From assembly GCF_001307295.1 (NCBI RefSeq), contig NZ_CP012700.1, positions 4,095,001 to 4,159,000 of the forward strand: 64,000 bases of DNA, given 5' to 3'. This DNA comes from Sphingopyxis macrogoltabida (GTDB taxonomy: Bacteria; Pseudomonadota; Alphaproteobacteria; Sphingomonadales; Sphingomonadaceae). Under the pieces are notes generated by a model. That model was not told the origin of the DNA, did not search any database, and saw only the letters and a list, made by a program, of their open reading frames with translations. Positions 29,520 through 43,771 of this stretch are shown here, piece by piece (the stretch's first letter is position 1; each line of letters opens with the position of its first letter). The position numbers and the translations under genes are program-made.

Positions 29520-30407
29520 ATGGATTGGGACAGGCTGCAATATTTCCTGCTCGTCGCGCGGCACGGCACGCTCGCACGCGCCGGCGCGGCGCTAAATGTC
29601 GATGCGACGACGGTCAGCCGGCGGGTCAGCGCGCTCGAAGCCGCGCTCGGCCAGACGCTTTTCGAACGGGCGCCGACCGGTTTCGTGCTGACCGCAGCGG
29701 GACGCGCCTTGGTCCCGCATGCCGAGGCGATGGCCGCAGCAGCGGCGCGCGTCAATATGGCACCGGGCGGCCGGGCGGGATTGTCGGGGCAGCTCCGCCT
29801 CAGCGTGACCGAGGGGTTCGGCAACAGCTTCATCGCGCCGCGGCTCGCGACCTTCGTCGCCGCGCATCCCGAGCTCGAGATCGACCTTGTCGCCTCGTCG
29901 GGTTTCCTCAATCCCTCACGGCGCGAGGCCGATATGGCGGTGCTGCTCGCGCGGCCCAGAAAAGGCCCGCTGATCACGCGCAAGCTGTCGGACTACAGCC
30001 TCGGCCTTTATGCGCCCGCGAGCCGGCCCGACTGGCAAAAGGCGGTCGGGGCGGCGCCGCTGTCGCGCGCGGGGATTCCGGTGATCGGTTATATGCCCGA
30101 TATCCTTTACGCGCCCGAACTCGATTATCTCGACGAGATCGAACCGGGGCTGCGCGCCAGCGTGCGGTCGTCGTCGATCCTCGCGCAGCGGCGGATGATC
30201 GCGGGCGGCGCCGGGGTCGGCGTGCTCCCCTGCTTCATCGCCGCCGGCGATCCCGGGCTGGTGCGGGTGCGGCCCGAACAGGTCATAGCGCGCGCCTTCT
30301 GGCTCGCACTTCACCGCGACGTCGCGCCGCAACCGCGCATCCGGGCGTTCATCGACTGGCTCGACGCCGAGGTGCGCGAGAGCCGGGGACTGCTCGTTCC
30401 GGCCTAA
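29520..30407 (+). CDS. LysR-family transcriptional regulator
   Basis: A 295-residue LysR-type regulator with an N-terminal winged helix-turn-helix (about residues 1-60: MDWDRLQYFLLVARHGT and VSRRVSALEAALGQ) followed by a LysR substrate-binding domain. It is divergent from mmsA, so it most likely controls the valine operon in response to a pathway acyl-CoA or acid; that is inference. The ATG at 29520 fits the family N-terminus. A longer frame opens at 29490. Its stop shares a 4-bp palindrome with the stop of the convergent uxuB gene (30404). Confidence 0.88.
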   Translation: MDWDRLQYFLLVARHGTLARAGAALNVDATTVSRRVSALEAALGQTLFERAPTGFVLTAAGRALVPHAEAMAAAAARVNMAPGGRAGLSGQLRLSVTEGFGNSFIAPRLATFVAAHPELEIDLVASSGFLNPSRREADMAVLLARPRKGPLITRKLSDYSLGLYAPASRPDWQKAVGAAPLSRAGIPVIGYMPDILYAPELDYLDEIEPGLRASVRSSSILAQRRMIAGGAGVGVLPCFIAAGDPGLVRVRPEQVIARAFWLALHRDVAPQPRIRAFIDWLDAEVRESRGLLVPA

Positions 30408-31720
30408 GGCCGCCAGTCCGACGCGATCAGGCCGCCCTCCCCGAACAGCCTTGCCATCGCATCCGGCCCGGCTACGGCGGCGCGCAAGTGGTCGGCGAGC
30501 GGGTCGTCGACGGGCTCGCCGCTGCGCAGGAAAGCGATCCACGCCGCCACGCCAGCTTCGAGCGAAGGGCAAGGCGCCCCGCGCCGCTGGTGCCAGGCCA
30601 GCGTTTCAAGCCAACGCTGCGGGATCTTCTGGCTGCCGTCCATCGCGATCTGGGCGAGCCGGTGGTCGAGCGCCGGATTGGCAAAGCGATCGAGCAGCGC
30701 GTCGGCATAGGCGGCAAGGTCCTGACCCGGCGCGGCGGCGATGGTCGGGGCTGCTTCCTCGCGCATCAGCCGTTCGATGACCGGGCGGATATCGGGATCG
30801 GCGATCGCCTGATGGACGAACTCATATCCTCGTCCGAGCCCGATATAGGCAAGCGCCGAATGCGCGCCGTTGAGCAGCCGCAGCTTCGCGGTTTCATAGG
30901 GCGTGACGTCGGCGACCAGTTCGGCGCCGGCCTCTTCCCAGCACGGGCGCGCGCCGGCGAAATCGTCCTCGATCACCCATTGGCTGAAGGCTTCGGTCAC
31001 CACCGCGCCCTCGTCGCGGGCGCCGAGCGCGGTTTCGACAGCAGCGCGGTCGGCGTCGGTCGTGGCGGGAACGATCCGGTCGACCATCGTCGCGGGGCAG
31101 GTGCATTCGCCGTCGAACCAAGACGCGATACCGGGATGATAAGCGGCGAGATATTCGCGCATCAACCGGCGCAGCACCGCGCCGTTGCCGGCAAGATTGT
31201 CGCAGCTGAGCAGGGTGAGCCCGCCCAGCCCCGCCGCCTTGCGTGCCGCGAGCCCGGCCGCGACGAAGCGATAGAGGCTCGATCCGCCGACCGCGGCCGC
31301 GAGGTCGAGCGATCCGTCGGAGCGGCGCGAATAGCCTTTCTCGGTCACGGTAAGGCTGACGATATGCGTCGTCGGCGCAGCGATGGCGTCGATCACCGCC
31401 TGCGGATGCTCCGCCGCAACGAGCGATTTCTGCACCGCACCGATCAGGCGCAGCCGCGTGCCCGCAGCGCCGCGGGCGCTCACCGTATAGAGCCCGTCCT
31501 GCGGGCCGAGCTGTGCAGCGACGTCGGGAGAGCGCAGCGACACCCCGACGATGCGCCAGTCGCGCTCGCCCGCGTTCATCGCATCGTCGGTGTAGACCGC
31601 CTGATGCGCGCGGTGGAACGCGCCGATGCCGAGATGGACGATCCCCGTCGCCTGCGCGTGCCGGTCATAGGCCGGGCGCTGCACCGCCGCGGGAAGCGGC
31701 GTATCGGGCGACAGCCTCAC
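30404..31720 (-). CDS. uxuB: Fructuronate reductase (mannitol-dehydrogenase family)
   Basis: The 438-residue polyol dehydrogenase matches E. coli UxuB across its length: VHLGIGAFHRAHQAVYT at the N-terminal NAD site, VSLTVTEKGY, FTVMSCDN-like LTLLSCDNLAGNG, MVDRIVPATTDAD, QWVIEDDF and MDGSQKIPQRWL. It reduces fructuronate to mannonate with NADH after UxaC. UxaB-type tagaturonate reductase is less likely from these stretches. The ATG overlaps the uxaC stop (ATGA). It is the last gene of the hydratase-exuT-uxaC-uxuB unit. The mannonate dehydratase it needs is not in the window. Confidence 0.88.
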   Translation of the reverse strand: MRLSPDTPLPAAVQRPAYDRHAQATGIVHLGIGAFHRAHQAVYTDDAMNAGERDWRIVGVSLRSPDVAAQLGPQDGLYTVSARGAAGTRLRLIGAVQKSLVAAEHPQAVIDAIAAPTTHIVSLTVTEKGYSRRSDGSLDLAAAVGGSSLYRFVAAGLAARKAAGLGGLTLLSCDNLAGNGAVLRRLMREYLAAYHPGIASWFDGECTCPATMVDRIVPATTDADRAAVETALGARDEGAVVTEAFSQWVIEDDFAGARPCWEEAGAELVADVTPYETAKLRLLNGAHSALAYIGLGRGYEFVHQAIADPDIRPVIERLMREEAAPTIAAAPGQDLAAYADALLDRFANPALDHRLAQIAMDGSQKIPQRWLETLAWHQRRGAPCPSLEAGVAAWIAFLRSGEPVDDPLADHLRAAVAGPDAMARLFGEGGLIASDWRP

Positions 31721-33129
31721 AGCCGATATGCCTTTCTGGCGAGGTTACAGGCAAGGTCGGCCGCGAGTTCGGCGGCCTCCCATTCCTCCATGCGATGTTC
31801 GGCGACGAGCCCGGCGAGGAAGCCGCAGTCGATCCGCCGCGCGACGTCGTGGCGCGCGGGGATCGACAGGAAGGCGCGCGTGTCGTCGTTGAAACCGACG
31901 GTGTTGTAGAAGCCCGCCGTCTCGGTGACCTGCGCCCGGAAACGGCGCATCCCCTCCGGGCTGTCGTGGAACCACCAGGCCGGGCCGAGCCACAGCGCCG
32001 GATAATGGCCGGCGAGCGGCGCGAGTTCGCGCGCATAACTCGTCTCGTCGAGCGTGAAGAGGATGATCGTCAGCCCCGCCTCGTTGCCATAGCGCGCGAG
32101 CAGCGGGCGCAGCGCATGAACATAGTCGGTGCGCATCGGAATATCGGCGCCCTTGTCGCGGCCGTGGCGCGCGAACAGCCCAGGGTTGTGGTTACGGAAA
32201 CTGCCGGGGTGGATCTGCATCACCAGTCCGTCGTCGAGGCTCATCCCCGCCATCACCGTCAGCATGTGCGCGCGGAACAATTCGGCATCGGCGGCGCTGA
32301 CCTGGTCGCCGGTGACCCGCGCGAACAGTGCTTCGGCCTCGACGTCCGACAGGTCGGCGGTCGCGGCGGTCGGATGCCCGTGGTCGGTGGAGGTCGCGCC
32401 CATGCTTGCAAAGAACTCACGGCGATTGCGATGGGCGGCGAGGTAACCGGTATAGCTGAACGCGTCCTCGCCCGACAATTCGGCGAAGCGCCGGAGATTG
32501 TCGCGGAAGCCTTCATATTCGGGATCGACGACGGGGTCGGGGCGATAGGCGGTGATTACGCGCCCGCCCCATTCCCCGCTTTCGTTCGCGGCGCGGATCG
32601 CGGCGTGATGCACCAGCGTGTCGAGCGGGCTTTCGGTCGTCGCGATCACCTCGATCCCGAAGCGGTCGAACAAGGCACGCGGGCGGAAGGCATCGCTCGT
32701 CAGCGCTTCGCCGATGCGGTCGTAATAGAGGTCGGACATTCCGGCGGAAAATTGAACATCGAATCCGAACACCGCGGCAAACACCCAGTCCATCCACATC
32801 CGCGTCGGGGTCCCGCGAAAGAGATGATAGTTTTGCGCGAACAGCCGCCAGCTTTCCCGGGGATCGGCCTGTGCGTTGCCGATGCCGAGCGCATCGAGCG
32901 GCACGCCCTGCGAATAGAGCATCCGGAAGACATAATGATCGGGGTGAAGCAGCAGTTCAGCGGCATTGCCGAACGGCGCGTTGCCCGCGAACCAGGCCGG
33001 ATCGGTGTGGCCGTGCGGGCTGACGATCGGCAGGTCCGCGACCTCGCGATAGAGGCGCCGTGCGATGGCGCGTTGGCCCGGATCGGATGGAAACAACCGG
33101 TCGGCATGCAGGATCAACGGGCGCGTCAT
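31717..33129 (-). CDS. uxaC: Glucuronate isomerase
   Basis: A 470-residue uronate isomerase with the amidohydrolase-like barrel: PIVSPHGHTDP with the metal-binding His-x-His near residue 39, WMDWVFAAVFG, ATTESPLDT, QIHPGSFRNHN and the C-terminal VGFNDDTRAFLSIPARHD. It converts glucuronate to fructuronate or galacturonate to tagaturonate; with UxuB next to it, the glucuronate route is more likely. The start at 33129 overlaps the stop of the hexuronate transporter (ATGA); an open frame extends to 33429 inside that gene. It is central to the locus. Confidence 0.93.
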   Translation of the reverse strand: MTRPLILHADRLFPSDPGQRAIARRLYREVADLPIVSPHGHTDPAWFAGNAPFGNAAELLLHPDHYVFRMLYSQGVPLDALGIGNAQADPRESWRLFAQNYHLFRGTPTRMWMDWVFAAVFGFDVQFSAGMSDLYYDRIGEALTSDAFRPRALFDRFGIEVIATTESPLDTLVHHAAIRAANESGEWGGRVITAYRPDPVVDPEYEGFRDNLRRFAELSGEDAFSYTGYLAAHRNRREFFASMGATSTDHGHPTAATADLSDVEAEALFARVTGDQVSAADAELFRAHMLTVMAGMSLDDGLVMQIHPGSFRNHNPGLFARHGRDKGADIPMRTDYVHALRPLLARYGNEAGLTIILFTLDETSYARELAPLAGHYPALWLGPAWWFHDSPEGMRRFRAQVTETAGFYNTVGFNDDTRAFLSIPARHDVARRIDCGFLAGLVAEHRMEEWEAAELAADLACNLARKAYRL

Positions 33130-34433
33130 GTGCCTTCGACGGTGACCGGCGCGAGGCGCGGGCTCAAGAGATGGACCGCGAGCACCGCGAGGAAATAGAC
33201 GATCGTACACGCCGCAAAGATAAGGGTGTAATTGCCGCCGGTGGCATCGAGTACGAGCCCGGTCGATTTTGCCATGATCATCCCGCCCACGCCGCCCATG
33301 AAGCCGCCGAGCCCGATCACCGACCCGACCGCGCGTTTCGGGAACATGTCGGGCGGGACCGAGAGGATCGTCGACGAAAAGGCCTGATGACCCGCGAGCG
33401 CGATGCCGATCAGCAGCACCGCAAGCCACATATTGTCGAGCCCGGTGACGAACAGCAAAGGCAGCACGCAGCAGCCGGCGCCGAGCATTGTCGCCTTACG
33501 CGCGAAATTGACGCTGCGGCCACGCTCGATCAGTTTCGACGACACCCAGCCGCCGGCGATGCTGCCGACATCGGACAGCAGATACATGACGACCATCGGC
33601 AGCAGCACGACCTTGAGGTCGACATCGTAGGTGGCGCTGAAATATTTGGGCAGCCAGAACAGCATCAGGAACCAGACCGGGTCGGTGAGGAACTTGGCCA
33701 TCGCAAAGGCCCACGCCTCGCGTTTGGTGACGATCCGGCTCCAGCCGAGGCGCGCGACCTTTTCGGGCGGGTCGTGCTCGATCCAGGCGAGTTCGGCCTC
33801 GCTGACCTTCCCGCTCTCGCGCGGGTTGCTGTAGAGCCAGAGCCAGAGCAGCAGCAGGACGACGCCGAAGGCGCCGGTATAGATAAATGTCTCGCGCCAG
33901 TCGAAACCAAGCACCCGCATGAACAACGCGATCGTCGGCGCGGTCAATATGACGCCGATGGTGGTCGCGCTGTTGACCCAGCCGATCGCATAAGCGCGTT
34001 CCTTTTGCGGGAACCACTCGCTCGAGGCGCGGACGACCGAGGGAAAATGCCCCGCCTCGCCCACCCCGAGCACGACGCGCGCAAGCATGAAGGAGACGAC
34101 CGACGACGCGAAACCATGCGCGACATGGCCGATCGTCCAGATCGCGATCGCGATGCTGTAGCCGACCTTGGGGCCGAAGCGATCGATCAGCCAGCCCATG
34201 AGCAGAAAGCCCAGCGCATAGGCGGCCTGGAAAGCGGAGACGATATTGCCATAATCATTCTCGGACCAGCGCAGCTCGTCGCCGAGGACCGGCGCGAGCA
34301 GGCCGAGCATCGTGCGGTCGATATAATTGACCGTCGTCGCCGCGAACAGCAGCGCGACGATCAGCCAGCGATAGCGTCCCGCCCTGGGCACCGGCGCCGC
34401 TGCTGCCTCCTCGCCCGCGATTGCCTGTGCCAT
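33126..34433 (-). CDS. exuT: MFS transporter, ACS family, probable hexuronate importer (ExuT type)
   Basis: A 435-residue carrier with twelve predicted helices. The first loop has NYIDRTMLGLLAPV and the helix-2/3 loop has GWLIDRFGPKVGYS, as in the anion:cation symporter branch that includes E. coli ExuT. Another characteristic stretch is GVGEAGHFPSVVRASSEWFP. It likely brings hexuronates released in the periplasm across the inner membrane with a proton. The start at 34433 follows AAGGGCGGGAG. It lies between the hydratase-like gene (20 bp) and uxaC (overlap), inside a unit with an upstream LacI-type operator. Confidence 0.88.
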   Translation of the reverse strand: MAQAIAGEEAAAAPVPRAGRYRWLIVALLFAATTVNYIDRTMLGLLAPVLGDELRWSENDYGNIVSAFQAAYALGFLLMGWLIDRFGPKVGYSIAIAIWTIGHVAHGFASSVVSFMLARVVLGVGEAGHFPSVVRASSEWFPQKERAYAIGWVNSATTIGVILTAPTIALFMRVLGFDWRETFIYTGAFGVVLLLLWLWLYSNPRESGKVSEAELAWIEHDPPEKVARLGWSRIVTKREAWAFAMAKFLTDPVWFLMLFWLPKYFSATYDVDLKVVLLPMVVMYLLSDVGSIAGGWVSSKLIERGRSVNFARKATMLGAGCCVLPLLFVTGLDNMWLAVLLIGIALAGHQAFSSTILSVPPDMFPKRAVGSVIGLGGFMGGVGGMIMAKSTGLVLDATGGNYTLIFAACTIVYFLAVLAVHLLSPRLAPVTVEGT

Positions 34434-34453: not shown

Positions 34454-35239
34454 TTAGCTTGTAATCGTGCAACCGACGCGGATTTTTCCGTCGAACAGCG
34501 CTTCGCCGCGCTCACCGGGGCGAATTTCGTGGATGCCGGTGATCGCGCCGGCCGACAGCCACGTCCCGGGCGGGATCGCGATGCCGCGCGCGCGCAGCGT
34601 GCGAATGAGGAACAGCGCCGATCCGAACGGGCCGTCGAGCATCGTTTCCATCGTCGCCGCACCGACGGTTTCGCCATCGATGGCGAACTCGACCGGCATA
34701 TGGATCAGGTCCCTGTCCTGCCAGCCGGCGAGCGGCGGCCCGAGCACCAGTCCCCTGTTGTTGCCGAAGTCCGAGGCGGTGACCGCAGGGCCGTGGCGGT
34801 TGATGCCCTGAAAGGGCGAGCTGGCGATTTCGATGCCGGGCCGCACCTCCGCAATGCAGTCGCGCACCGACGCGATGTCATAGTCACGCTCGGCGACCGT
34901 CCCGAAGCACAGCACGACTTCGGCTTCGGCCGCCGCGAAGCCGCCTGCATAGACGGGCATGGCGGGGCGGATCCCACCGGAGTCCCCGACAATTTCGTCG
35001 GCGAAGATCGGCCCGGTCAGCCGGTTCCCGCCATAGCGGCCGACGAGGTCGGCAGCGATGCGCCCGACCTTCCAGCCGCCGACGCGGCGTCCGTCGAGCG
35101 CGATCGCCGCATCCTGGATCGCATAGGCATCGGCCATCGTTTCGGGCATCGCGCCGGGATACAAGGTAAGCGGTGTCTTTTCTGCGCGCGCGGCGAGGAA
35201 CGCTGCGGCGATATTTTTCTGTTCGGTGGTCGCTGCCAT
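34454..35239 (-). CDS. MhpD-type 2-keto-4-pentenoate hydratase family protein
   Basis: The 261-residue protein is of the MhpD/2-oxopent-4-enoate hydratase group of the fumarylacetoacetase fold. Characteristic parts are the N-terminal MADAYAIQDA, GWKVGRI, the acidic metal-site EAEVVLCFG and EVRPGIEIASS, and ASDFGNNRGLVLG. It would hydrate or cleave a 2-keto acid with a divalent metal. No step of the known hexuronate pathways needs such an enzyme, so its role in this locus is unclear. It begins the hydratase-exuT-uxaC-uxuB unit; a perfect operator palindrome lies 38 bp upstream. The start at 35239 follows GGAAGAGG. Confidence 0.75.
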   Translation of the reverse strand: MAATTEQKNIAAAFLAARAEKTPLTLYPGAMPETMADAYAIQDAAIALDGRRVGGWKVGRIAADLVGRYGGNRLTGPIFADEIVGDSGGIRPAMPVYAGGFAAAEAEVVLCFGTVAERDYDIASVRDCIAEVRPGIEIASSPFQGINRHGPAVTASDFGNNRGLVLGPPLAGWQDRDLIHMPVEFAIDGETVGAATMETMLDGPFGSALFLIRTLRARGIAIPPGTWLSAGAITGIHEIRPGERGEALFDGKIRVGCTITS

Positions 35240-35276: not shown

Positions 35277-35288
35277 GACACCGGTGTC
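35277..35288. promoter_or_regulatory. LacI-type operator, site A
   Basis: GACACCGGTGTC is a perfect 12-bp palindrome in the divergent gap between the hydratase-exuT-uxaC-uxuB unit and the lacI gene. It matches the related sites at 40871, 41008 and 43760. It lies 38 bp before the hydratase start, so it may govern that unit and lacI. Confidence 0.75.
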
Positions 35289-35417
35289 AAAAGCAAGCAA
35301 ATAGCCGTTGTTGCGGTTGATTTTGCCCAACCGAGCGCCCATCAGGGAAGGGACAGGCCAAAGTGGTGGGACACGGTGCGGCGCGCCGGGCAAGGCCTGT
35401 GGAGGAAAGCTGGAGTC

Positions 35418-36461
35418 ATGGTGGGACAAGCGGGCGGCAAACAACCGACGATCAATGATGTGGCGGCGCTCGCCGGAGTATCGAAAAAAACCGTCAGCCG
35501 CGTCATCAACCGGTCCGAATTCATCAGCGAAAAGACCCGCAAGGCCGTTCAGGGTGCGATCGAGACACTGGGGTTCGTCCCCAACCCGCAGGCGCGGGCG
35601 CTCGCCTTTCGCCGCAATTTCCTGATCGCGCTGCTCCACGACAACCCCAATGCGCAGACGGTGCTCAATTTCCAGCAGGGCGTGCTCGACGCGATCAAGG
35701 ACAGCGACCTCGCGCTGCTCGTCCGCCCGGTCGACCGGGGATCGGACCGGATGCTCGACGACGTCCGCACCTTCCTCGAAAAACAGCGCCCGATCGGCGC
35801 GATGCTGCTGCCGCCGATTTCGGAGAATGACGATCTTGCCTCGCTCTGCGCGACGCTCGGCGTACGCTATGTCCGCGTCGGCTCGGCGCCGCTCGACGAT
35901 CCGCAGCATTGCGTCTCGTCGAACGACCATGACGTCGTCAAGGAAGCGGTGCGGCGGCTCGTCGACCTTGGCCACCGTCGCATCGGCTTCGTGCGCGGGC
36001 CCGAGGGGTTCCGTTCGGCGGCCGAGCGCGAAAAGGGCTTCCGCGAGGCGCTCGCCGACGCCGGGCTGAGCCTTGCCGACGATCATTATGCGCCCGGCAA
36101 TTACCGCTATGCCGCCGGGGTCGAGGCCGGCGAAAAATTGCTGGCGCTCGCCGAACCGCCCACGGCGATCTTCTGTTCGAACGACGAAATGGCGGCCGGC
36201 GTAATGAGCGTTGCGCATGGCAAAGGGATCGCGGTGCCGGGCGCGCTGTCGATCATCGGCTTCGACGATTCGCCGACCGCGACGCATATCTGGCCGGCGC
36301 TGAGCACGGTGCGCTGGCCGATCCGCCAGATGGGGGTGCGCGCGGCGCAGCTCCTTGTCCCCGACTTCCTCGGCGCGGGCGCCAAGGCCATCGACCCCGA
36401 TCCTGCCGCGCTCACCTCGACCTTCGTCGAACGCCAGTCGGTCGCCCCGCCCGGGCGGTGA
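35418..36461 (+). CDS. LacI-family transcriptional regulator of the uronate locus
   Basis: A 347-residue LacI/GalR repressor. Residues 8-55 hold the helix-turn-helix TINDVAALAGVSKKTVSRVI plus the hinge region (NPQARALAFRR). The effector-binding domain has GFVRGPEGF, AIFCSNDEMAAGV and SIIGFDDSP. It likely binds the CCGG-centred palindromes before the three catabolic units and is released by a uronate intermediate such as KDG; that is inference from position and family. The ATG at 35418 follows GGAGGAAAG, with an open frame upstream to 35226 lacking support. It is divergent from the hydratase gene and convergent with the beta-helix gene. Confidence 0.9.
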   Translation: MVGQAGGKQPTINDVAALAGVSKKTVSRVINRSEFISEKTRKAVQGAIETLGFVPNPQARALAFRRNFLIALLHDNPNAQTVLNFQQGVLDAIKDSDLALLVRPVDRGSDRMLDDVRTFLEKQRPIGAMLLPPISENDDLASLCATLGVRYVRVGSAPLDDPQHCVSSNDHDVVKEAVRRLVDLGHRRIGFVRGPEGFRSAAEREKGFREALADAGLSLADDHYAPGNYRYAAGVEAGEKLLALAEPPTAIFCSNDEMAAGVMSVAHGKGIAVPGALSIIGFDDSPTATHIWPALSTVRWPIRQMGVRAAQLLVPDFLGAGAKAIDPDPAALTSTFVERQSVAPPGR

Positions 36462-36464
36462 GGA

Positions 36465-38147
36465 TCAGCGCCGCCGCCGCGCAAGCTGATAATCGTAGAG
36501 CGACGGCACCGCATCGACTGCCATGCCCTTCGCCTCGATATAGGGGGCGGGGTCGTAGCTGACCGTGATCCGGCGGTTCGCGTGCAGCCCGACGATCCGC
36601 TCGCCCGGCCCCTCGATCCCGCTGACGATCGCAACCTCGGCATCTGCCGGAACCGCGTCGGCGATCACCAGCCGCGCGTTCCACAGTGTGTTGTAGAGCC
36701 CGTGCCCCGGCTTCCAGTAAGGCGCGCCGCCGCCCATCCACAGCCGGTAACGCCACGCGCCCTTGTCCTGCTTCGGATCGATATGCAGCGTCACCTGGTC
36801 GAACAGATTCTGGTGGTTCGATCCGCTGTGCTGGTCGATCACGCCGTCCTGCGCGACGGTGGAGCGAAGGAAGACCGAGCGCGTCGAGCGCGTGTTGACG
36901 CTGAGCGGGTGGATCACCGGATTCTCGACCTTCAGGTCCCGGACCAGCACATTGTGCACCGCGCCGACATGGACCGAATAATGCGCGGCGCGATCGCCCG
37001 TCGTCGTCACATCGGCGATCGTCAGGCTGGCGGCATTGTCGGTCAATATGCCGCTGTCCGACCGGTCGATGACTAGGTTGCGAATCCAGCCGTCGAAGAC
37101 CCCGGTCATATAGATGCCGTTATAGCCTTGTTCGAGATGATGGCCGAACGCCGGCGCTGCGGGGAATTGCAGCCGCAAATTCTGGATGCCGACCTGTTCG
37201 AGATGCCGCCAGTTCGCGAGCACCGCGGGCTGGTCGGTGCGCACGTCGTGGAGCAGCGGATCGCCCAGCGTCACCGTCTTGCCGCGTACCGACGCGATGC
37301 GTGTCGCCTGCACGACGACCGGGCGGTCGGGCGACGACCAGTGATGCGATCCGATCGGCAGGTCGGTGTCGCCATAGAGCGACTTCAATATCGCGCTGTT
37401 GGGCCCGTCGACCGAAAACCATTGCAACTGAACGACGTCGCCGGCCTTGAGCTTCGTGGCGTCGTCGACGGTGAGCGTACGGCCAAACTGTTTTCCCGCG
37501 ACGCCGCGCGCCAGCACCGGGTCGCGCGCATCCTTGCTGCCATCGTAGGAGACGGCGCGCGTCTTTTCCGGCCCGACGGTGATCATCCCGCCGGCCCAGC
37601 TATATTCGGTGAACAGATAGTCGATGTTGTTCTCGGGCTCGACCTGATATTTCTTCTCGCGCACCAGATAAGCGCGCAGTTCGTCATAATCGTCGCTCTT
37701 GTCGATGAGCTTCAGTGGCCGCGGGAACCAGAGTTCGCTGCCGCCGGGGCCATCGCCGGCGCCGTCGAGGGCGATATCGCTGCGCGTGATGCGCAGCACT
37801 TCGGTGATCTGCGTTCGCCCCTTGGGGAAGCGTAGTGTGACCTTGCCCTTGACCGCATTGGCGGCGGCAAGCGCGCGCAGCACCGCCTTCGTATCGTCGA
37901 GCCCGTCGTCGGGCATCGCGCCATGGTCGGTAACCTCGATGACCGTTCCCGCATCGGCGGGGAGCGGCGCGAGGCCGAAACCATAGCCGGCGTAGGAGAA
38001 ATCGGGGAGCGGATTGGCCGTCACCGTCGCGGGGTCGGAGAGGATTTTGGGCAGTTTTGCCGGTTCGGCCTGCACCGGCGCGCTCAGCATCGCCACCAGC
38101 GCTGCGCCGAAAGCAAAACGCGCCTGCCAATTACGCTGTATCTTCAC
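36465..38147 (-). CDS. Secreted right-handed beta-helix protein, probable polyuronate lyase
   Basis: The 560-residue protein starts at a GTG at 38147 behind GGAGATTTGG and carries a clear signal peptide (residues 1-26, cut after PVQA). Residues 50-130 match the opening of a pectate-lyase/GH28-type beta-helix (VIEVTDHGAMPDDGLDDTKA and GKVTLRFPKG). Repeated coils with Asn/Asp ladders (RNLVIDRSDSGILTDNA) follow, then a C-terminal module with GAWRYRLWMGGGAPYW like DUF4955-bearing proteins. Catalytic residues cannot be fixed by eye. It sits after the TonB receptor gene on the same strand; in a locus that processes glucuronate and unsaturated uronates it is the best candidate to cut the polymer. 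Confidence 0.75.
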   Translation of the reverse strand: MKIQRNWQARFAFGAALVAMLSAPVQAEPAKLPKILSDPATVTANPLPDFSYAGYGFGLAPLPADAGTVIEVTDHGAMPDDGLDDTKAVLRALAAANAVKGKVTLRFPKGRTQITEVLRITRSDIALDGAGDGPGGSELWFPRPLKLIDKSDDYDELRAYLVREKKYQVEPENNIDYLFTEYSWAGGMITVGPEKTRAVSYDGSKDARDPVLARGVAGKQFGRTLTVDDATKLKAGDVVQLQWFSVDGPNSAILKSLYGDTDLPIGSHHWSSPDRPVVVQATRIASVRGKTVTLGDPLLHDVRTDQPAVLANWRHLEQVGIQNLRLQFPAAPAFGHHLEQGYNGIYMTGVFDGWIRNLVIDRSDSGILTDNAASLTIADVTTTGDRAAHYSVHVGAVHNVLVRDLKVENPVIHPLSVNTRSTRSVFLRSTVAQDGVIDQHSGSNHQNLFDQVTLHIDPKQDKGAWRYRLWMGGGAPYWKPGHGLYNTLWNARLVIADAVPADAEVAIVSGIEGPGERIVGLHANRRITVSYDPAPYIEAKGMAVDAVPSLYDYQLARRRR

Positions 38148-38172
38148 TATCCAAATCTCCTGACGATCCGGT

Positions 38173-38206
38173 TCCGGTGGCGGCGTGGACGGCGGCCACC
38201 ACCGGA
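38173..38206 (-). promoter_or_regulatory. Hairpin between TonB receptor and beta-helix genes
   Basis: TCCGGTGG at 38173-38180 pairs with CCACCGGA at 38199-38206, with no T-run. It fills most of the 67-bp gap. It may stabilise or attenuate the mRNA so that the receptor and the enzyme are made in different amounts. Confidence 0.45.
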
Positions 38207-38214
38207 GTGGGGGA

Positions 38215-40827
38215 TCAGAATTTCGCCCGCACGCCGACCGAGAAGCGCCGCTCCGACAGGGCATAGCTATTGAGCGCGGTCGGGTTGAAATTGCTATATT
38301 CGCTCGTCGCCGATTTTTTCGGCATCAGGTTTTGCGCCTGCAGCGACAGGGCGAAATTCTCGGTCAGGTCGAAGCCGAGCTGCGCGTCGAGTTGCGAGCG
38401 CGCGCCGATGAAGCTCGGCCGGCCTTCGGAAAATTCGAACACCGCCTCGTCGCGGTAATTATAGGCGATGCGCGCCGAGAAAGGACCTTTTTCATAGAGG
38501 CCGACGAGGTTGTAGCTGTTCTTCGACACCGCAACGAGCGGGAAGCCGGCATTATCCTCCGAATCCGAATAGGTGTAATTGGCGATGATGCCGAGGCCGT
38601 CGAACGGTGCGGGCAGGAAGTCGGCGAACTGCTGGATGCCGATCTCGAAGCCCTTGATCCGGGCGCTGGCGAGATTTTCGGGTCGCGAGAAGGTAAGCTC
38701 GCGCCCTTGGTCGTCGAGGTCGAGATCGACGCCGGTGGTCACGAAGCTGGCGATGAAATCCTGCACATCCTTGTAGAAGACCGCGCCCGAGATCAGCGAG
38801 CTCTTGCCCGTATAATATTCGAAGCTGACATCGGCCTGCGTCGAGATCGGCGGCTTGAGGTTCACATTGCCGCCGGTGACCGACAGGTTCGTCGCGTTGA
38901 AAAAGGTCGACGGCGCAAGGTCGGCGATCGACGCGCGCTGCATCGTCTGCGATCCCGAGACGCGGATCAGGAAATTGTCGGTGACGTTGAAGGCGATGTT
39001 CGCGCTGGGCAGGACGTTCGTATAGCGGTTCTTGTCGTTGCGCAGCGTGCTGACCGTGCCGACGTTGACGTAGCTATCGACCGACAGCCGGGTGCTGGCG
39101 ATACGCACCCCGGCATTCGCCTTGTACGGCATGCCGAGGATCTCGCCCTCGCCCGATACCATCAGATAGGCGGCAAGCGTGCGTTCGCTGAAGTCATAAT
39201 CGCGCTGGAGGTTGGGCAGCAGCGTCGACTGGCCGTTCGCGTCGGGATTGGGTTCGGCCGCCTGCGCGCGAGTGAAGACATAGTCGAAGGTCGGCGCGGT
39301 GCTGAGAAAGCCGCGCGGGAAGCTTCCGGCGATGTCGGGCAGGAAATTCTTCGCGTCGATCAGCTTCAGATAGGGTTCGATTTCGGCGCGGGTCGGGGTC
39401 ACCTGGCTGCGATAGGCGTTCGACCGCGCGTGCAGGTCGGTATAGCGCACCCCGGCGGCGATGGTGACCCCGCCGGCGGTTTCGTAGCTGACGTCTAGCT
39501 TGCCGGTCCATTCCTCGAGCAGCCCGATCAACCGGTTGCTGCGCACGCCGTTGTTCGCGGGATTGTACGACGCATAATCGGCGGGGTCGAAAGTGCCGCC
39601 GAGCGTCAACGACGGGATGGTGTCGTCGCGGAAATCGAAGGCGCCGGGGACGGGCGCGGCCGCCTGCAGCGTGATGATCTGGATTGTCTGGTCGATCGTG
39701 CCCTTGCTGTAATAGCCGTCGGCCTCGATCGTCAGCCCGCCGCTCTCATATTTGCCGTTGAGCCCGTAGAGGAAGCTTTCGGTCGGCTCGTTGCGGATCT
39801 GCCCCGCGGTGGTGACGGTGCCGTTGGCGCTGCCCGCGACGACCATGCCGTCCTCTACCACCGCACCGGTCACCGGATTGGCGCCGGTCGGCAGGCGGAA
39901 TGCGAAAAAGTCCTGTCGGCGCCCGGTCTTGAGCTTCGAATAGAGCGCGTCGGCGGTGACGGTGAATTCGGGCGTCACCTCGAACTGGATCGCGCCATTG
40001 AGGCCGAGCCGCGAGCGGTCGACCGTGAACTGTTCATATTGCAGCAGCGCCGGGGTCGGCTGGGCGGTCGTAACGCCGTTCGCGGTATAGTTGCGATTGA
40101 GAAAATTGTTGCGCTCGAACGCCTGCGTCGTCGAGGTGCGCTTCTGATATTCGCCCGCGATCATGATGCCGATGCGGTCGTCGGCAAACTTCGTCGTTGC
40201 AAAGCCGGTGATCGCGGGTTCGAACTTGTCGCTGTTCTCCGAATAGACGCCCTGCACCCGCAGCGAGGCGGTCGGCTCCTTGAACGAGAGCGGTTTCGGG
40301 GTGACGAGGTTGACCGTGCCGCCTAGTCCGCCCTCGGCCTGGCTGGCGAGCGGCGACTTGCGCACCTCAAGGCGGCCGAACAGGCTCGATGGTACCGAAT
40401 CGAGCCCCGACGAGCGGCCGAGCTGGTCGTTCTCGGGTGGCGACAGCCGCGCCGACCAGCCGAGCAGGGTGCGCCCGTCGACCTCGACGCGGACCTGCTG
40501 CAACCCGCGCACCGACACCGACTGGCCCTCACCGAAAACGCGGGTGATCTGGACGCCGGTAACGCGCTGCAGCGCCTCGGCGACATTGGCGTCGGGAAGT
40601 TTGCCGACATCCTCGGCGGTGATGACGTCCATCACCTGCCCTGCCTCGCGCTTGATATCGGCCGCCCGCTCGAGCGACGCGCGAATGCCGGTCACGATGA
40701 TTTCGCCTTCGGGCGTGTCCGCGCCCGCTTCCTGCGCATAGGCAGGTGCCGCCATCAGCACCGCGAGCGACACGCCGCTCGCAAGTTTCACCGTCAAGGC
40801 GCCGCCCCGCTTCATCCGAATAGCCAT
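38215..40827 (-). CDS. TonB-dependent receptor
   Basis: An 870-residue outer-membrane receptor with a signal peptide (cut near AYAQ), an N-terminal plug with EIIVTGIRASLERA and KLPDANVAEALQRVTGVQI, the GLGGTVNLVTPKP motif, and a 22-strand barrel ending in RAKF, with the final Phe usual for outer-membrane insertion. It is the TonB-Xanth-Caul type used for carbohydrate uptake. Its place in the locus indicates import of oligo-uronides. The start at 40827 follows AAAGGGAGGGCC. Operator sites lie 44 and 181 bp upstream. The beta-helix protein follows on the same strand. Confidence 0.93.
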   Translation of the reverse strand: MAIRMKRGGALTVKLASGVSLAVLMAAPAYAQEAGADTPEGEIIVTGIRASLERAADIKREAGQVMDVITAEDVGKLPDANVAEALQRVTGVQITRVFGEGQSVSVRGLQQVRVEVDGRTLLGWSARLSPPENDQLGRSSGLDSVPSSLFGRLEVRKSPLASQAEGGLGGTVNLVTPKPLSFKEPTASLRVQGVYSENSDKFEPAITGFATTKFADDRIGIMIAGEYQKRTSTTQAFERNNFLNRNYTANGVTTAQPTPALLQYEQFTVDRSRLGLNGAIQFEVTPEFTVTADALYSKLKTGRRQDFFAFRLPTGANPVTGAVVEDGMVVAGSANGTVTTAGQIRNEPTESFLYGLNGKYESGGLTIEADGYYSKGTIDQTIQIITLQAAAPVPGAFDFRDDTIPSLTLGGTFDPADYASYNPANNGVRSNRLIGLLEEWTGKLDVSYETAGGVTIAAGVRYTDLHARSNAYRSQVTPTRAEIEPYLKLIDAKNFLPDIAGSFPRGFLSTAPTFDYVFTRAQAAEPNPDANGQSTLLPNLQRDYDFSERTLAAYLMVSGEGEILGMPYKANAGVRIASTRLSVDSYVNVGTVSTLRNDKNRYTNVLPSANIAFNVTDNFLIRVSGSQTMQRASIADLAPSTFFNATNLSVTGGNVNLKPPISTQADVSFEYYTGKSSLISGAVFYKDVQDFIASFVTTGVDLDLDDQGRELTFSRPENLASARIKGFEIGIQQFADFLPAPFDGLGIIANYTYSDSEDNAGFPLVAVSKNSYNLVGLYEKGPFSARIAYNYRDEAVFEFSEGRPSFIGARSQLDAQLGFDLTENFALSLQAQNLMPKKSATSEYSNFNPTALNSYALSERRFSVGVRAKF

Positions 40828-40870
40828 ATGGCCCTCCCTTTCGCAGCGCATCTCCGCCAAAGCAAGAAAT

Positions 40871-40882
40871 GACACCGGTTAC
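40871..40882. promoter_or_regulatory. LacI-type operator, site B
   Basis: GACACCGGTTAC is the reverse complement of sites C and D and lies 44 bp before the TonB receptor start. A GCAAGA/TCTTGC pair flanks it at 40862-40867 and 40883-40888. Confidence 0.72.
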
Positions 40883-41007
40883 TCTTGCAGGCAAAAAAAC
40901 GGATCGACGCGCTTTTGCCATCCTTTTCCGAGAGCAAGCGGGAGGCCGCCGTTTTCGGCGGGCCGGACGCCCTCTCCCCATCGATATCGTTTCGTTGACC
41001 GATTCAG

Positions 41008-41032
41008 GTAACCGGTGTCAGTAACTGGTGAC
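41008..41032. promoter_or_regulatory. LacI-type operator, site C, plus a degenerate tandem copy
   Basis: GTAACCGGTGTC at 41008-41019 is followed one base later by GTAACTGGTGAC (41021-41032), a copy with two changes. Both lie in the 273-bp gap upstream of the TonB receptor. They could form a second operator for looping or cooperative binding. I see nothing else in the rest of the gap. Confidence 0.65.
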
Positions 41033-41100
41033 CTATCGGATGATCTATGTCAAGCGAGATTGTCGTACAACTTTGATCGCGCGGGCCGGCGCCGGTGCGA

Positions 41101-42111
41101 TCAGCGCCGGACGTCGAGCCCGCCGGCGTGGAACGCCGCAATATCGGCGGCGCCGAAGCGGCTGGCATCGCCGGGCAGCGAATGTTTGAGGCAGGTCAGC
41201 GCAAGGCCGGTTTCGGCCATCGCGCGCGCATCGCCGCCCGCGCGCCAAGCGTGGAGCACCCCGGCGGCGAAGGCGTCGCCGGCGCCGATGCGATCAACGA
41301 TACCGGTCACGTCGACCTCGCCGGTCTGGTGGGCGCTGTCCCGGCGGTCGACGCGCGCCGCGACGCGGTGATGGTCGGCGGTAAGGACATGCCGCGCGGT
41401 CGAGGCGATGATCCGCAGGTCGGGGAACGCAGCAAAGCCCGCCTCCGCCGCCTCGCGCCGCCGGTCTTCGCCCTCGCCGCCGAAATCCTTGCCAAGGACG
41501 AGCGACAGGTCGCGGTGGTTGCCGAAGAGAATTTCGGCGAGGCCGATCAGTTCGCCGAGGATCGCGCGCGGATCGCTGTCCCACGCCTGCCACAGCATCG
41601 CGCGGTAATTGCCGTCGAAGCTGACCGGCACGCTGAGCCGCTTTGCCGCGCGCGCCGCCGCCAGCGCCGCTTCGGCCGGGCGCGGCCCGAGCGCGGGGGT
41701 GATCCCCGACAGGTGCAGCAGTCCCGCTCCGGCGAGCAGCGCGTCCCAGTCATAATCCTCCGCACCGCGCGCGGCGAAGCTCGATCCGGCGCGGTCGTAG
41801 ACGATCTCGGAGGCGCGCAGCCCGGCGCCGACGCTGAGGAAATAGAGCCCCATGCGCCCCGCGCCGGTCGCGACGGCGCCGCAATCGACGCCTGCGCCGC
41901 GCGCCGCCGCCACCGCCCCGCGCCCGAGTGCATTGCCGGGAACCGCACTCACCATCGCACAGTCGTGGCCGAGATGGGCGAGCCCGATCGCGACATTCGC
42001 CTCGGCCCCACCGACATGGAGCGCCAGCGCCGGCGACTGCATCAGCAGCTCGTTGCCCGGTGCGGTGAGGCGGATCAGCAGTTCGCCGAAGAAGACGAGA
42101 CGGTCCGGCAT
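41101..42111 (-). CDS. kdgK: 2-dehydro-3-deoxygluconokinase
   Basis: A 336-residue PfkB-family sugar kinase with the substrate-side LVFFGELLIRL start, LLHLSGITPALG, and the C-terminal signature DRIGAGDAFAAGVL with the catalytic Asp. With KduI and KduD upstream on the same strand, it should phosphorylate 2-keto-3-deoxygluconate to KDPG with ATP. It starts at 42111, 9 bp after the kduD stop, and ends the kduI-kduD-kdgK unit. The next enzyme, KDPG aldolase, is not in the window. Confidence 0.88.
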   Translation of the reverse strand: MPDRLVFFGELLIRLTAPGNELLMQSPALALHVGGAEANVAIGLAHLGHDCAMVSAVPGNALGRGAVAAARGAGVDCGAVATGAGRMGLYFLSVGAGLRASEIVYDRAGSSFAARGAEDYDWDALLAGAGLLHLSGITPALGPRPAEAALAAARAAKRLSVPVSFDGNYRAMLWQAWDSDPRAILGELIGLAEILFGNHRDLSLVLGKDFGGEGEDRRREAAEAGFAAFPDLRIIASTARHVLTADHHRVAARVDRRDSAHQTGEVDVTGIVDRIGAGDAFAAGVLHAWRAGGDARAMAETGLALTCLKHSLPGDASRFGAADIAAFHAGGLDVRR

Positions 42112-42120
42112 GGCGCGATG

Positions 42121-42876
42121 CTAGCGTGCGAGCCAGCCGCCGTCGACGGCGAGGATATGGCCCTGCACATAGTCCGAGGCCGACGACGCGAGGAACACGG
42201 CAGCGCCGCCGATATCCTCGGGGCCGCCCCAGCGGCCGGCGGGGATGCGCTCGACGATCTGGCGATTGCGCGTTTCGTCGCCCTGCAACGCCGCGGTGTT
42301 GTTCGTCGCGATATAGCCGGGGGCGATCGCGTTGACGTTGACGCCCTTCGCCGCCCATTCGTTCGCGAGCAGCTTGGTCAGCCCGCCGACCCCCGATTTC
42401 GACGCGGTGTAGCTCGGCACGCGGATGCCGCCCTGAAAGGTCAGCATCGAGGCGATGTTGATGATCTTGCCGCTGCCGCGCGCGATCATGTGGCGCCCGA
42501 CGCTCTGGCAGAGGAAAAAGAGCGTCTTGAGATTGGTGTCCATCACTGCGTCCCAGTCGGCTTCGGTAAAGTCGACCGCATCGGCGCGGCGGATGATCCC
42601 GGCATTGTTGACGAGAATGTCGATCCGCCCGAATTCGGCGAGCACCGCATCGACGAGCGGCTGCACTGCGCCGACGCCCGACAGGTCGGCGGCGAAGTTG
42701 TCGCCGCGACGGCCGAGCGCGCGCACCTTGCCAACGGTCTCGTCGGCAGGCGAGCGGCCAGCGGCGGCGATGTCGGCGCCCGCTTCGGCAAGCGCGAGCG
42801 CAATGCCTTGCCCGATACCGGTATTGGCGCCGGTGACCAGCGCGACCTTGCCCGAAAGATCGAAGAGGCCGGGCAT
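42121..42876 (-). CDS. kduD: 2-deoxy-D-gluconate 3-dehydrogenase (KduD)
   Basis: A 251-residue SDR with TGANTGIG at 15-22, NNAGIIRRAD, Ser in NIASMLTFQGG, and YTASKSG with the catalytic Tyr-x3-Lys. It reads like KduD throughout (GLFDLSGKVALVTG and PAGRWGGPEDI). It reduces 3-deoxy-D-glycero-2,5-hexodiulosonate made by KduI to 2-keto-3-deoxygluconate. The ATG at 42876 shares one base with the kduI stop (TGATG). A GTG just before it is an alternative start. It is followed 9 bp later by kdgK. Confidence 0.92.
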   Translation of the reverse strand: MPGLFDLSGKVALVTGANTGIGQGIALALAEAGADIAAAGRSPADETVGKVRALGRRGDNFAADLSGVGAVQPLVDAVLAEFGRIDILVNNAGIIRRADAVDFTEADWDAVMDTNLKTLFFLCQSVGRHMIARGSGKIINIASMLTFQGGIRVPSYTASKSGVGGLTKLLANEWAAKGVNVNAIAPGYIATNNTAALQGDETRNRQIVERIPAGRWGGPEDIGGAAVFLASSASDYVQGHILAVDGGWLAR

Positions 42877-43712
42877 CACTTGAGCTGGCAGATGTCGAGG
42901 ACGTTCATGTCGGTATAGTCGAGATTCTCGCCGCCCATCGCCCAGATGAAAGCATATTTCTTCGTCCCCGACCCCATGTGGATCGACCAGGGTGGGCTGA
43001 TCACCGCTTCCTCGTTTGCGATCACGATGTGCCGCATGCTGTCGGGCTCGCCCATATAATGGAAGATGCGGTCATTCTCTTCGGGCAGGTCGAAATAGAG
43101 ATAGATTTCGCTGCGCCGGTCGTGGAGGTGCGGCGGCATCGTGTTCCACACGCTGCCCTCCTCGAGCACGGTGAGCCCGAGCAGCAATTGCGCGCTTTCG
43201 CATACGCCGGGGATCACGAGCTGATAGATCGTCCGCTGGTTCGAATTGGCAAGGTCGCCGCGGGCGAGCGGGTTCGCCTGATCGAGCGTGATGTGCCGGA
43301 TCGGGCAGACCTTGTGCGCCGGGAGCGACGCCAGATAGAAGCGCGCGCCGTCGCCTTCGAAGACCACCTCCTTTGATCCCATCGGGATATAGAGGCATTC
43401 CTTGTTCTTCATCGCAAAGCGCTGGCCATCGACGCTGATCGTGCCGTCGGTGCCGATATTGACCGCCGCCATCTCGCGCCGTTCGAGGAAGGGATGCCCC
43501 GCGGCCGAGGCCGGCTCGCTCTGGTCGGGAAGCCGCAGCGCGCCGCCCTTCGGCACCGCACCGCCGATGACGAAGCGCTCATTGTGCGAATAGTTGAGGT
43601 TGATCCTGCCGTCGGCGAACATGCCGGGGACAAGATAGCGATCGCGCAGCGCGTCATTGTCCACGCATTCCATCATGTCGGGGTGGGTCGCGTGGTAGGT
43701 TTTGGCAAACAT
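42876..43712 (-). CDS. kduI: 5-dehydro-4-deoxy-D-glucuronate isomerase
   Basis: A 278-residue cupin isomerase that converts 5-keto-4-deoxyuronate, released when unsaturated uronates open, to 3-deoxy-hexodiulosonate. The metal-binding motif is in [18 protein letters not shown] (His-x-His with a Glu five residues on), and a further His is in PPWSIHMG. The family opening [14 protein letters not shown] is present. It leads the kduI-kduD-kdgK unit; a LacI-type operator lies 48 bp upstream (43760). Its presence shows that the locus expects lyase products (4,5-unsaturated uronates). Confidence 0.95.
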
Positions 43713-43759
43713 GATGATCCTCGTCCCGGCTTCGTCGTGTCCATCTGCTAAACCCGACG

Positions 43760-43771
43760 GTAACCGGTGTC
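43760..43771. promoter_or_regulatory. LacI-type operator, site D
   Basis: GTAACCGGTGTC is identical to site C. It lies 48 bp before the kduI start, in the same relative place as sites A and B for their units, in the gap between kduI and the divergent efflux operon. Confidence 0.72.

Follow-up and report, generated by a model that had tools for sequence, protein, structure and literature searches.

The uronate locus and its palindromes

The window analysed here, a 64,000-nucleotide stretch of Sphingopyxis macrogoltabida contig NZ_CP012700.1 (positions 4,095,001 to 4,159,000), contains a gene for a LacI/GalR-family regulator, lacI, among genes for the use of uronates, and our subject is the set of short palindromes that stand before these genes. 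In this pathway, unsaturated uronate is converted to 2-keto-3-deoxygluconate (KDG) and then to 2-keto-3-deoxy-6-phosphogluconate (KDPG), and glucuronate enters through uxaC. The genes of the locus are the following, with all gene neighbourhoods and distances to start codons taken from codon-based gene calls.

30404 to 31720, minus strand: uxuB-like mannitol-dehydrogenase-family oxidoreductase (PF01232, PF08125; the name uxuB is inferred from context)
31717 to 33129, minus strand: uxaC, glucuronate isomerase (PF02614)
33126 to 34433, minus strand: MFS transporter, galactonate-transporter-like (TIGR00893, below its curated cut-off)
34454 to 35239, minus strand: fah, 2-keto-4-pentenoate-hydratase-like, first gene of unit 1 (weak matches below curated cut-offs; no Pfam match)
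35418 to 36461, plus strand: lacI, LacI/GalR-family regulator of 347 amino acids (PF00356 and PF13377)
36465 to 38147, minus strand: putative beta-helix polysaccharide lyase (resembles the BT3328-family hyaluronate lyase weakly, with a score far under the cut-off; PF12708 and PF16315 narrowly miss theirs)
38215 to 40827, minus strand: TonB-dependent receptor (TIGR01782 above cut-off; PF00593, PF07715)
41101 to 42111, minus strand: kdgK-like 2-keto-3-deoxygluconate kinase (PF00294; NF041633 and NF041332 below cut-offs)
42121 to 42876, minus strand: kduD, 2-dehydro-3-deoxygluconate 5-dehydrogenase (TIGR01832 above cut-off)
42876 to 43712, minus strand: kduI, 5-dehydro-4-deoxyglucuronate isomerase (NF002091 above cut-off)

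The original prediction had divided the minus-strand genes into three units, and the gene calls agree: the fah-like, MFS, uxaC and uxuB-like genes form unit 1, from which lacI diverges on the plus strand; the TonB receptor and the putative lyase form unit 2; and kduI, kduD and the kdgK-like gene form unit 3. Within units 1 and 3 neighbouring genes overlap or lie at most 20 bp apart, 67 bp separate the receptor from the lyase, and we infer that each unit is co-transcribed. The Kdu pathway set, kduI and kduD, which exceed their curated NCBIfam thresholds, and a KDG kinase recognised by its PfkB domain, is together in the locus. The LacI gene that had been placed here is likewise genuine, as both the N-terminal LacI helix-turn-helix (HTH) domain and the periplasmic-binding-protein-like ligand domain of its product score over their cut-offs. 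Its HTH match is the best-scoring of seven LacI HTH matches in the genome, chains of CcpA, PurR and LacI aligned with the protein over most of its length, and each of its HTH residues 21-31 (VSKKTVSRVIN) is at least 97% conserved among 77 sequences.

The palindromes, all of which were found where they had been reported, are these.

35277 to 35288, no strand: O1, the perfect palindrome GACACCGGTGTC, between the fah unit (minus) and lacI (plus)
40871 to 40882, plus strand: O2, GACACCGGTTAC, 43 bp before the TonB receptor, its GACACC half facing the gene
41008 to 41019, minus strand: O3, GTAACCGGTGTC, 180 bp before the TonB receptor and oriented along its transcription
41021 to 41032, minus strand: degenerate overlapping copy GTAACTGGTGAC, 13 bp from O3
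43760 to 43771, minus strand: O4, GTAACCGGTGTC, 47 bp before kduI

The sites nearest to the three units stand 37 bp before fah (ATG at 35239), 43 bp before the receptor (ATG at 40827) and 47 bp before kduI (ATG at 43712); the distances first given, 38, 44 and 48 bp, placed the sites correctly before the units and differ in the counting of one base. These three distances are inside the usual range of LacI-family operators, and the site at 41008, at 180 bp, is outside it. The ACC|GGT centre of all four exact sites fits the LacI rule of an even palindrome with a central CG. O1 is also 129 bp before the start of lacI and may therefore serve the autoregulation of this gene too. The degenerate copy at 41021 has a counterpart, GTAACAGGTGAC, in the neighbouring genome G311, whose lacI is 99% identical, and is absent from G312 and L017 (probably one record), so that it looks recent; its 13-bp spacing matches a LacI-family peak, but was seen only in the window and G311.

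Background of the motif in the genome

The exact form GWMACCGGTKWC has four matches in the window, all in the locus, and with one mismatch allowed there are ten window matches, against a mean of 1.06 and a maximum of 4 in 100 dinucleotide shuffles. A search of all 6 contigs of the 5.1-Mb genome gave nine places with the exact form, four in the locus and five elsewhere. The latter have the sequence GAAACCGGTGAC or GAAACCGGTTTC and fall within predicted genes, and no intergenic occurrence of the exact form was found in the genome outside the locus. The form TGACACCGGTTWC is present three times in the genome, and a looser search returned three copies of GACACCGGTTAC, none of them outside the locus. 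The 12-kb stretches searched around the genome's six remaining LacI genes contain no GACACCGGT, and several of these loci have CG-centred palindromes of another sequence: GTCAGC|GCTGAC, for example, is next to a GH3 gene paired with a TonB-receptor gene, and CAATC|GATTG is next to a further receptor.

The looser pattern GACACCGGTNNC has 11 places, four in the locus, three inside genes and four intergenic elsewhere, and since its reversed control gave 4 and 4 matches per strand against 8 and 4 for the real pattern, this form alone is not significant. Its sites at 894344, 2981036 and 4146506 were rejected as operators, being inside genes, and those at 4015333 and 4074131 were set aside as intergenic yet unsupported. 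The site at G000:C1:4015333 (L099:2334), GACACCGGTAGC, an unsupported candidate, is 33 bp before a ThuA-like gene adjoined by a rifampin ADP-ribosyltransferase-family gene. The one at G000:C1:4074131 (L134:2132), GACACCGGTAAC on the minus strand, lies some 230 bp upstream of a TonB-family gene, behind which comes a TolQ/ExbB-like gene, and has a gene of no assigned function on its other side; it could reflect a link to TonB energising, or chance.

Conservation across Sphingomonadales

Relatives of lacI were taken from a collection with one genome per species, and the best 80 of 165 are the 80 named loci considered here. Of these, 39 (L017 to L055, nearly all Sphingopyxis) match at 80-95%; the remaining 41 belong to other Sphingomonadales and match at 56-67%. 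Exact intergenic sites, one or more, are present in 77 of the 80 loci, and in the named loci and the window together 239 exact sites are intergenic versus 9 in genes, the intergenic portion making up 9.8% of the bases. Despite changes in gene order, sites precede kduI, fah, uxaC, altronate-dehydratase-like, rpiB-like and TonB-receptor genes; before fah there are 18 symmetric sites, and before kduI 28 in the forward orientation, that of 41008 (named loci, window included). Of the 77 sources with a called lacI, 69 have a site no more than 260 bp upstream of this gene; in 68 of the 69 a divergent gene stands on the other side, and this divergent partner changes among relatives.

A further survey covered 298 genomes of the family, sampled evenly from a larger set. 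With 53% identity and 360 bits as the minimum for a lacI orthologue, 83 of 85 genomes with the orthologue contain TGACACCGGTTWC, versus 36 of 213 without it (Fisher P = 5 × 10-42), at least two sites occur in 74 versus 8 of these genomes, and the mean number per genome is 3.4 versus 0.24. Among the sites listed, 129 of 150 belong to 38 genomes with lacI, and 111 of the 129 are within 20 kb of it. The motif before the target genes is conserved in genomes that hold the orthologous regulator, as is expected of a local regulon. Hence neither outcome that had been named as fatal to the prediction was observed: the sites are conserved in relatives with the same lacI (77/80 loci; 83/85 versus 36/213 genomes), and in place of many unrelated occurrences the exact form has no intergenic place in the genome outside the locus.

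Asymmetry and arrangement of the sites

Of the 248 exact sites, 244 contain the half GACACC at least once, with GTAACC, GAAACC or a second GACACC opposite it; the pattern would also admit the symmetric GTAACCGGTTAC, which none of the 248 shows. At sites with a single possible target gene, the GACACC half is upstream in 52 and downstream in 9, and 6 sites are symmetric; counted by distinct genus and gene family the numbers are 27, 7 and 5 (binomial P = 0.0008 for 27 versus 7). The nine downstream exceptions are before receptors (four), TRAP-transporter binding-protein genes (four) and lacI (one), and because of them the direction of the operator along transcription is a bias and not a rule. A -35 overlap was considered and is not claimed: by eye, kduI and the rpiB-like gene of Sphingopyxis agree with TTGACA-N17-TAGC, but a profile of -10/-35 scores showed no common register.

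Neighbouring intergenic sites less than 250 bp apart form 39 pairs, many of them at receptors, and both GACACC halves point outward in 38; the spacings are 67-69 bp (6 pairs), 133-149 bp (32) and 163 bp (1), and the window pair 40871/41008 has a spacing of 137 bp. Among relatives, pairs of this sort are often flanked by a different receptor (identity about 25-35%) on one side and, on the other, by a divergent gene that has no Pfam match, so that the site at 40871 may be a remnant of this paired arrangement. The orthologues of the window receptor have 16 forward sites, of which 14 lie 124-180 bp upstream of the called start, and two near sites in the opposite orientation of 40871 (in the window and L017). 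The 40871-type site GACACCGGTTAC is also in L017, of which L176 is probably the same record, and in the close neighbour L175, which carries both the 40871 and the 41008 type. The double sites that the original prediction saw at the TonB receptor are thus real in the window, and pairs recur in relatives, but at this receptor's orthologues the near site is the exception, 2 versus 16. Downstream third copies at 13 bp give only a weak signal at receptors.

The genes divergent from the paired-operator receptors include L033:2734-4107, encoding a 457-residue protein without a Pfam match, and its cluster of 44 members, which is not represented in the window locus.

A distal alginate-lyase locus

A second polyuronate locus (G000:C1:4183000-4194000, L097), 29 kb beyond the end of the window, contains a TonB receptor, an alginate-lyase-family gene, GH88 and DUF4861 genes and a GntR/FCD regulator. 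The TGACACCGGT core in the promoter of its receptor is inside a near-perfect 36-bp palindrome, TGCATCGAAATTGACACCGGTATCAATTTCGATGCA, to which only L146 comes close among seven other promoters shown.

Before this distal receptor, 52 kb from 41008, are TGACACCGGTATCA and TGACACCGGTAGCA, 31 bp apart at genome positions 4188329 and 4188360. The receptor is found at 81% identity or more in 30 of 80 genomes of the genus; TGACACCGGT is kept in all 30 upstream regions, and two copies 31 bp apart in six. TGACACCGGTATCA occurs 30 times in 29 of the 80 genomes, each time within 100 bp upstream of the distal receptor (coordinates compared by eye), and all 29 have the lacI orthologue, compared with 64 of 80 overall (P = 2.7 × 10-4). 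Distal receptor and lacI are, however, linked: where both were measured on one contig, in 21 genomes, 27-59 kb separate them, and therefore their co-occurrence is no independent proof that the distal promoter is a member. The promoter of the distal alginate receptor probably belongs to the lacI regulon, and the single local regulon first proposed is probably too narrow, a second polyuronate receptor promoter showing the same core.

Probable regulation by the LacI protein, and alternatives

The palindromes are very probably operators of the LacI-family repressor encoded at 35418-36461, which would control the three units and perhaps itself. When no inducer is present, a LacI dimer on the CCGG-centred sites would block the promoters of kduI-kduD-kdgK, of the receptor and putative lyase, and of fah-MFS-uxaC-uxuB, and the protein may also repress its own divergent gene; an intermediate of the uronate pathway would release it, for which KDG or 4-deoxy-5-keto uronate are natural guesses. 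With the half TGACACC mostly upstream and GGTTACC downstream, the arrangement would fit operators on or beside the core promoter. Paired receptor sites would tighten the control of the outer-membrane gate, and the protein probably also acts on the receptor of the neighbouring alginate-lyase locus.

Several observations weigh against this interpretation. An exact site is missing from three of the 80 named loci, each of which is shorter than full length. The site is present in 36 of the 213 genomes without the orthologue, in eight of them at least twice, so that the motif alone is no proof, and G052, counted as lacking the orthologue on a partial lacI match, has eight sites. Two of the 85 orthologue genomes, G235 and G091, lack the exact TGACACCGGTTWC form (the G235 locus, L111, has the symmetric form GACACCGGTGTC), and G072 has 15 copies of TGACACCGGTTWC scattered genome-wide, with 4 of 13 listed within 10 kb of lacI, which represent either an expanded regulon or a repeat. 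A scan for the sigma-70 consensus found no promoter across the operators; this and the missing common -10/-35 register leave a bias in direction only and not a -35 overlap.

The sites in genomes without the orthologue, together with the likeness of LacI-family motifs to each other and the seven LacI HTH matches in the genome, would suit another regulator, encoded elsewhere, with the local lacI a bystander; we consider this very unlikely, as the sites co-occur with and lie near orthologues of the local lacI, and the other LacI loci show other palindromes and no GACACCGGT in their 12-kb stretches. Chance or a non-regulatory repeat has practically nothing in its favour other than the shortness of the motif: the shuffles, the genome background, the co-occurrence in the family and the intergenic bias speak against it, and conservation before non-homologous genes contradicts it. 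The LacI protein could instead be a dual regulator or act as an activator at some promoters, chiefly that of the receptor, the far sites then serving as upstream activator sites. The receptor's conserved site, mostly 124-180 bp before the start codon, would suit such a role, as would the preferred direction, which a plain symmetric repressor does not need; yet a long 5' leader accounts equally well for the distance, many kduI, fah and uxaC sites are 30-55 bp before start codons, the usual position of a repressor, and we regard activation as improbable.

For the distal receptor, the choice is between the LacI protein and some other regulator, such as the product of the adjacent FCD-GntR gene, which would leave the uronate regulon strictly local. 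That gene is present in the distal locus, the second half in the 30 distal promoters is mostly GGTATCA (also GGTAGCA and GGTGGCA) and never GGTTACC, and the linkage of receptor and lacI weakens the co-occurrence test. Against this, the core TGACACCGGT is identical, and the AAGTTGT..ACA repeats found there, together with AAGTTGTCTGACAACC in front of the GH88 gene, have by eye the look of a distinct site type for the GntR protein; a strictly local regulon is possible but rather unlikely. The broadest proposal is that one LacI-type regulator coordinates polyuronate use across Sphingomonadales through an asymmetric, transcription-tied operator, outward pairs at divergent TonB receptors and a distal alginate-lyase promoter shared with a GntR-type regulator; we give it an even chance.

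Target genes and their use

The putative lyase at 36465-38147 has 1537 homologues among 7993 candidates scored, many with PF12708 and some with PF16315. Its predicted structure is poor (mean predicted local distance difference test score, pLDDT, of 48), and when its profile was compared with solved structures, about 50 residues at the N-terminus matched beta-helix enzymes (E = 1.7 × 10-4 and weaker), namely GH110 alpha-galactosidases and a polygalacturonase, the remaining rows being at chance level. It is putatively secreted and possibly represents an uncharacterised polysaccharide-lyase family. The fah-like gene, with 52 members in the loci, stands behind the only perfectly symmetric operator of the locus.

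For work on how Sphingomonadales use uronates and polyuronates, these results supply a ready motif, TGACACCGGTTWCC (or with GGTGTCA as second half), together with a list of targets. They point towards target genes such as the fah-like first gene, the putative lyase with no Pfam match above cut-off and the 457-residue protein of the relatives, and offer a simple system for asking how one sugar-acid signal gates separate outer-membrane receptors.

Comparison with known systems

The literature searched contained nothing relevant on this motif or on a uronate or polyuronate regulon of Sphingomonadales, although a RegPrecise entry may exist, and neither 'sphingomonad' nor 'ACCGGT' was found in the main text of PMC4052901. 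As the parts of that study drawn on here describe them, LacI-family local sugar-catabolic regulons use an even palindrome with a central CG, mostly 30-140 bp before start codons, neighbouring sites show spacing peaks at 13 and 32 bp, and autoregulation is frequent. The window operators resemble these in their even CG-centred palindrome, in the start-codon distances of three of them and in the 13-bp spacing. In the same account, the gntKU genes under E. coli GntR (LacI family) have two operators about 13 bp apart, as at 41008/41021; unlike gntKU, the second copy in the window is degenerate and was seen only in the window and one close neighbour. KdgR, UxuR and UxaR of Bacteroides are likewise LacI-family proteins, governing KDG, glucuronate and galacturonate catabolism, but they are described there as a Bacteroides branch. 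SuxR of the Xanthomonas campestris sux locus, as presented in the parts of PMC1790865 drawn on here, is also a repressor of the LacI/GalR family whose gene has those of a TonB-dependent receptor and an MFS transporter for neighbours, and its mutant shows increased transport; the sux locus differs in serving sucrose and not uronates. LacI-family control of uronate genes is of a known kind, and the circuit described here is real but conventional.

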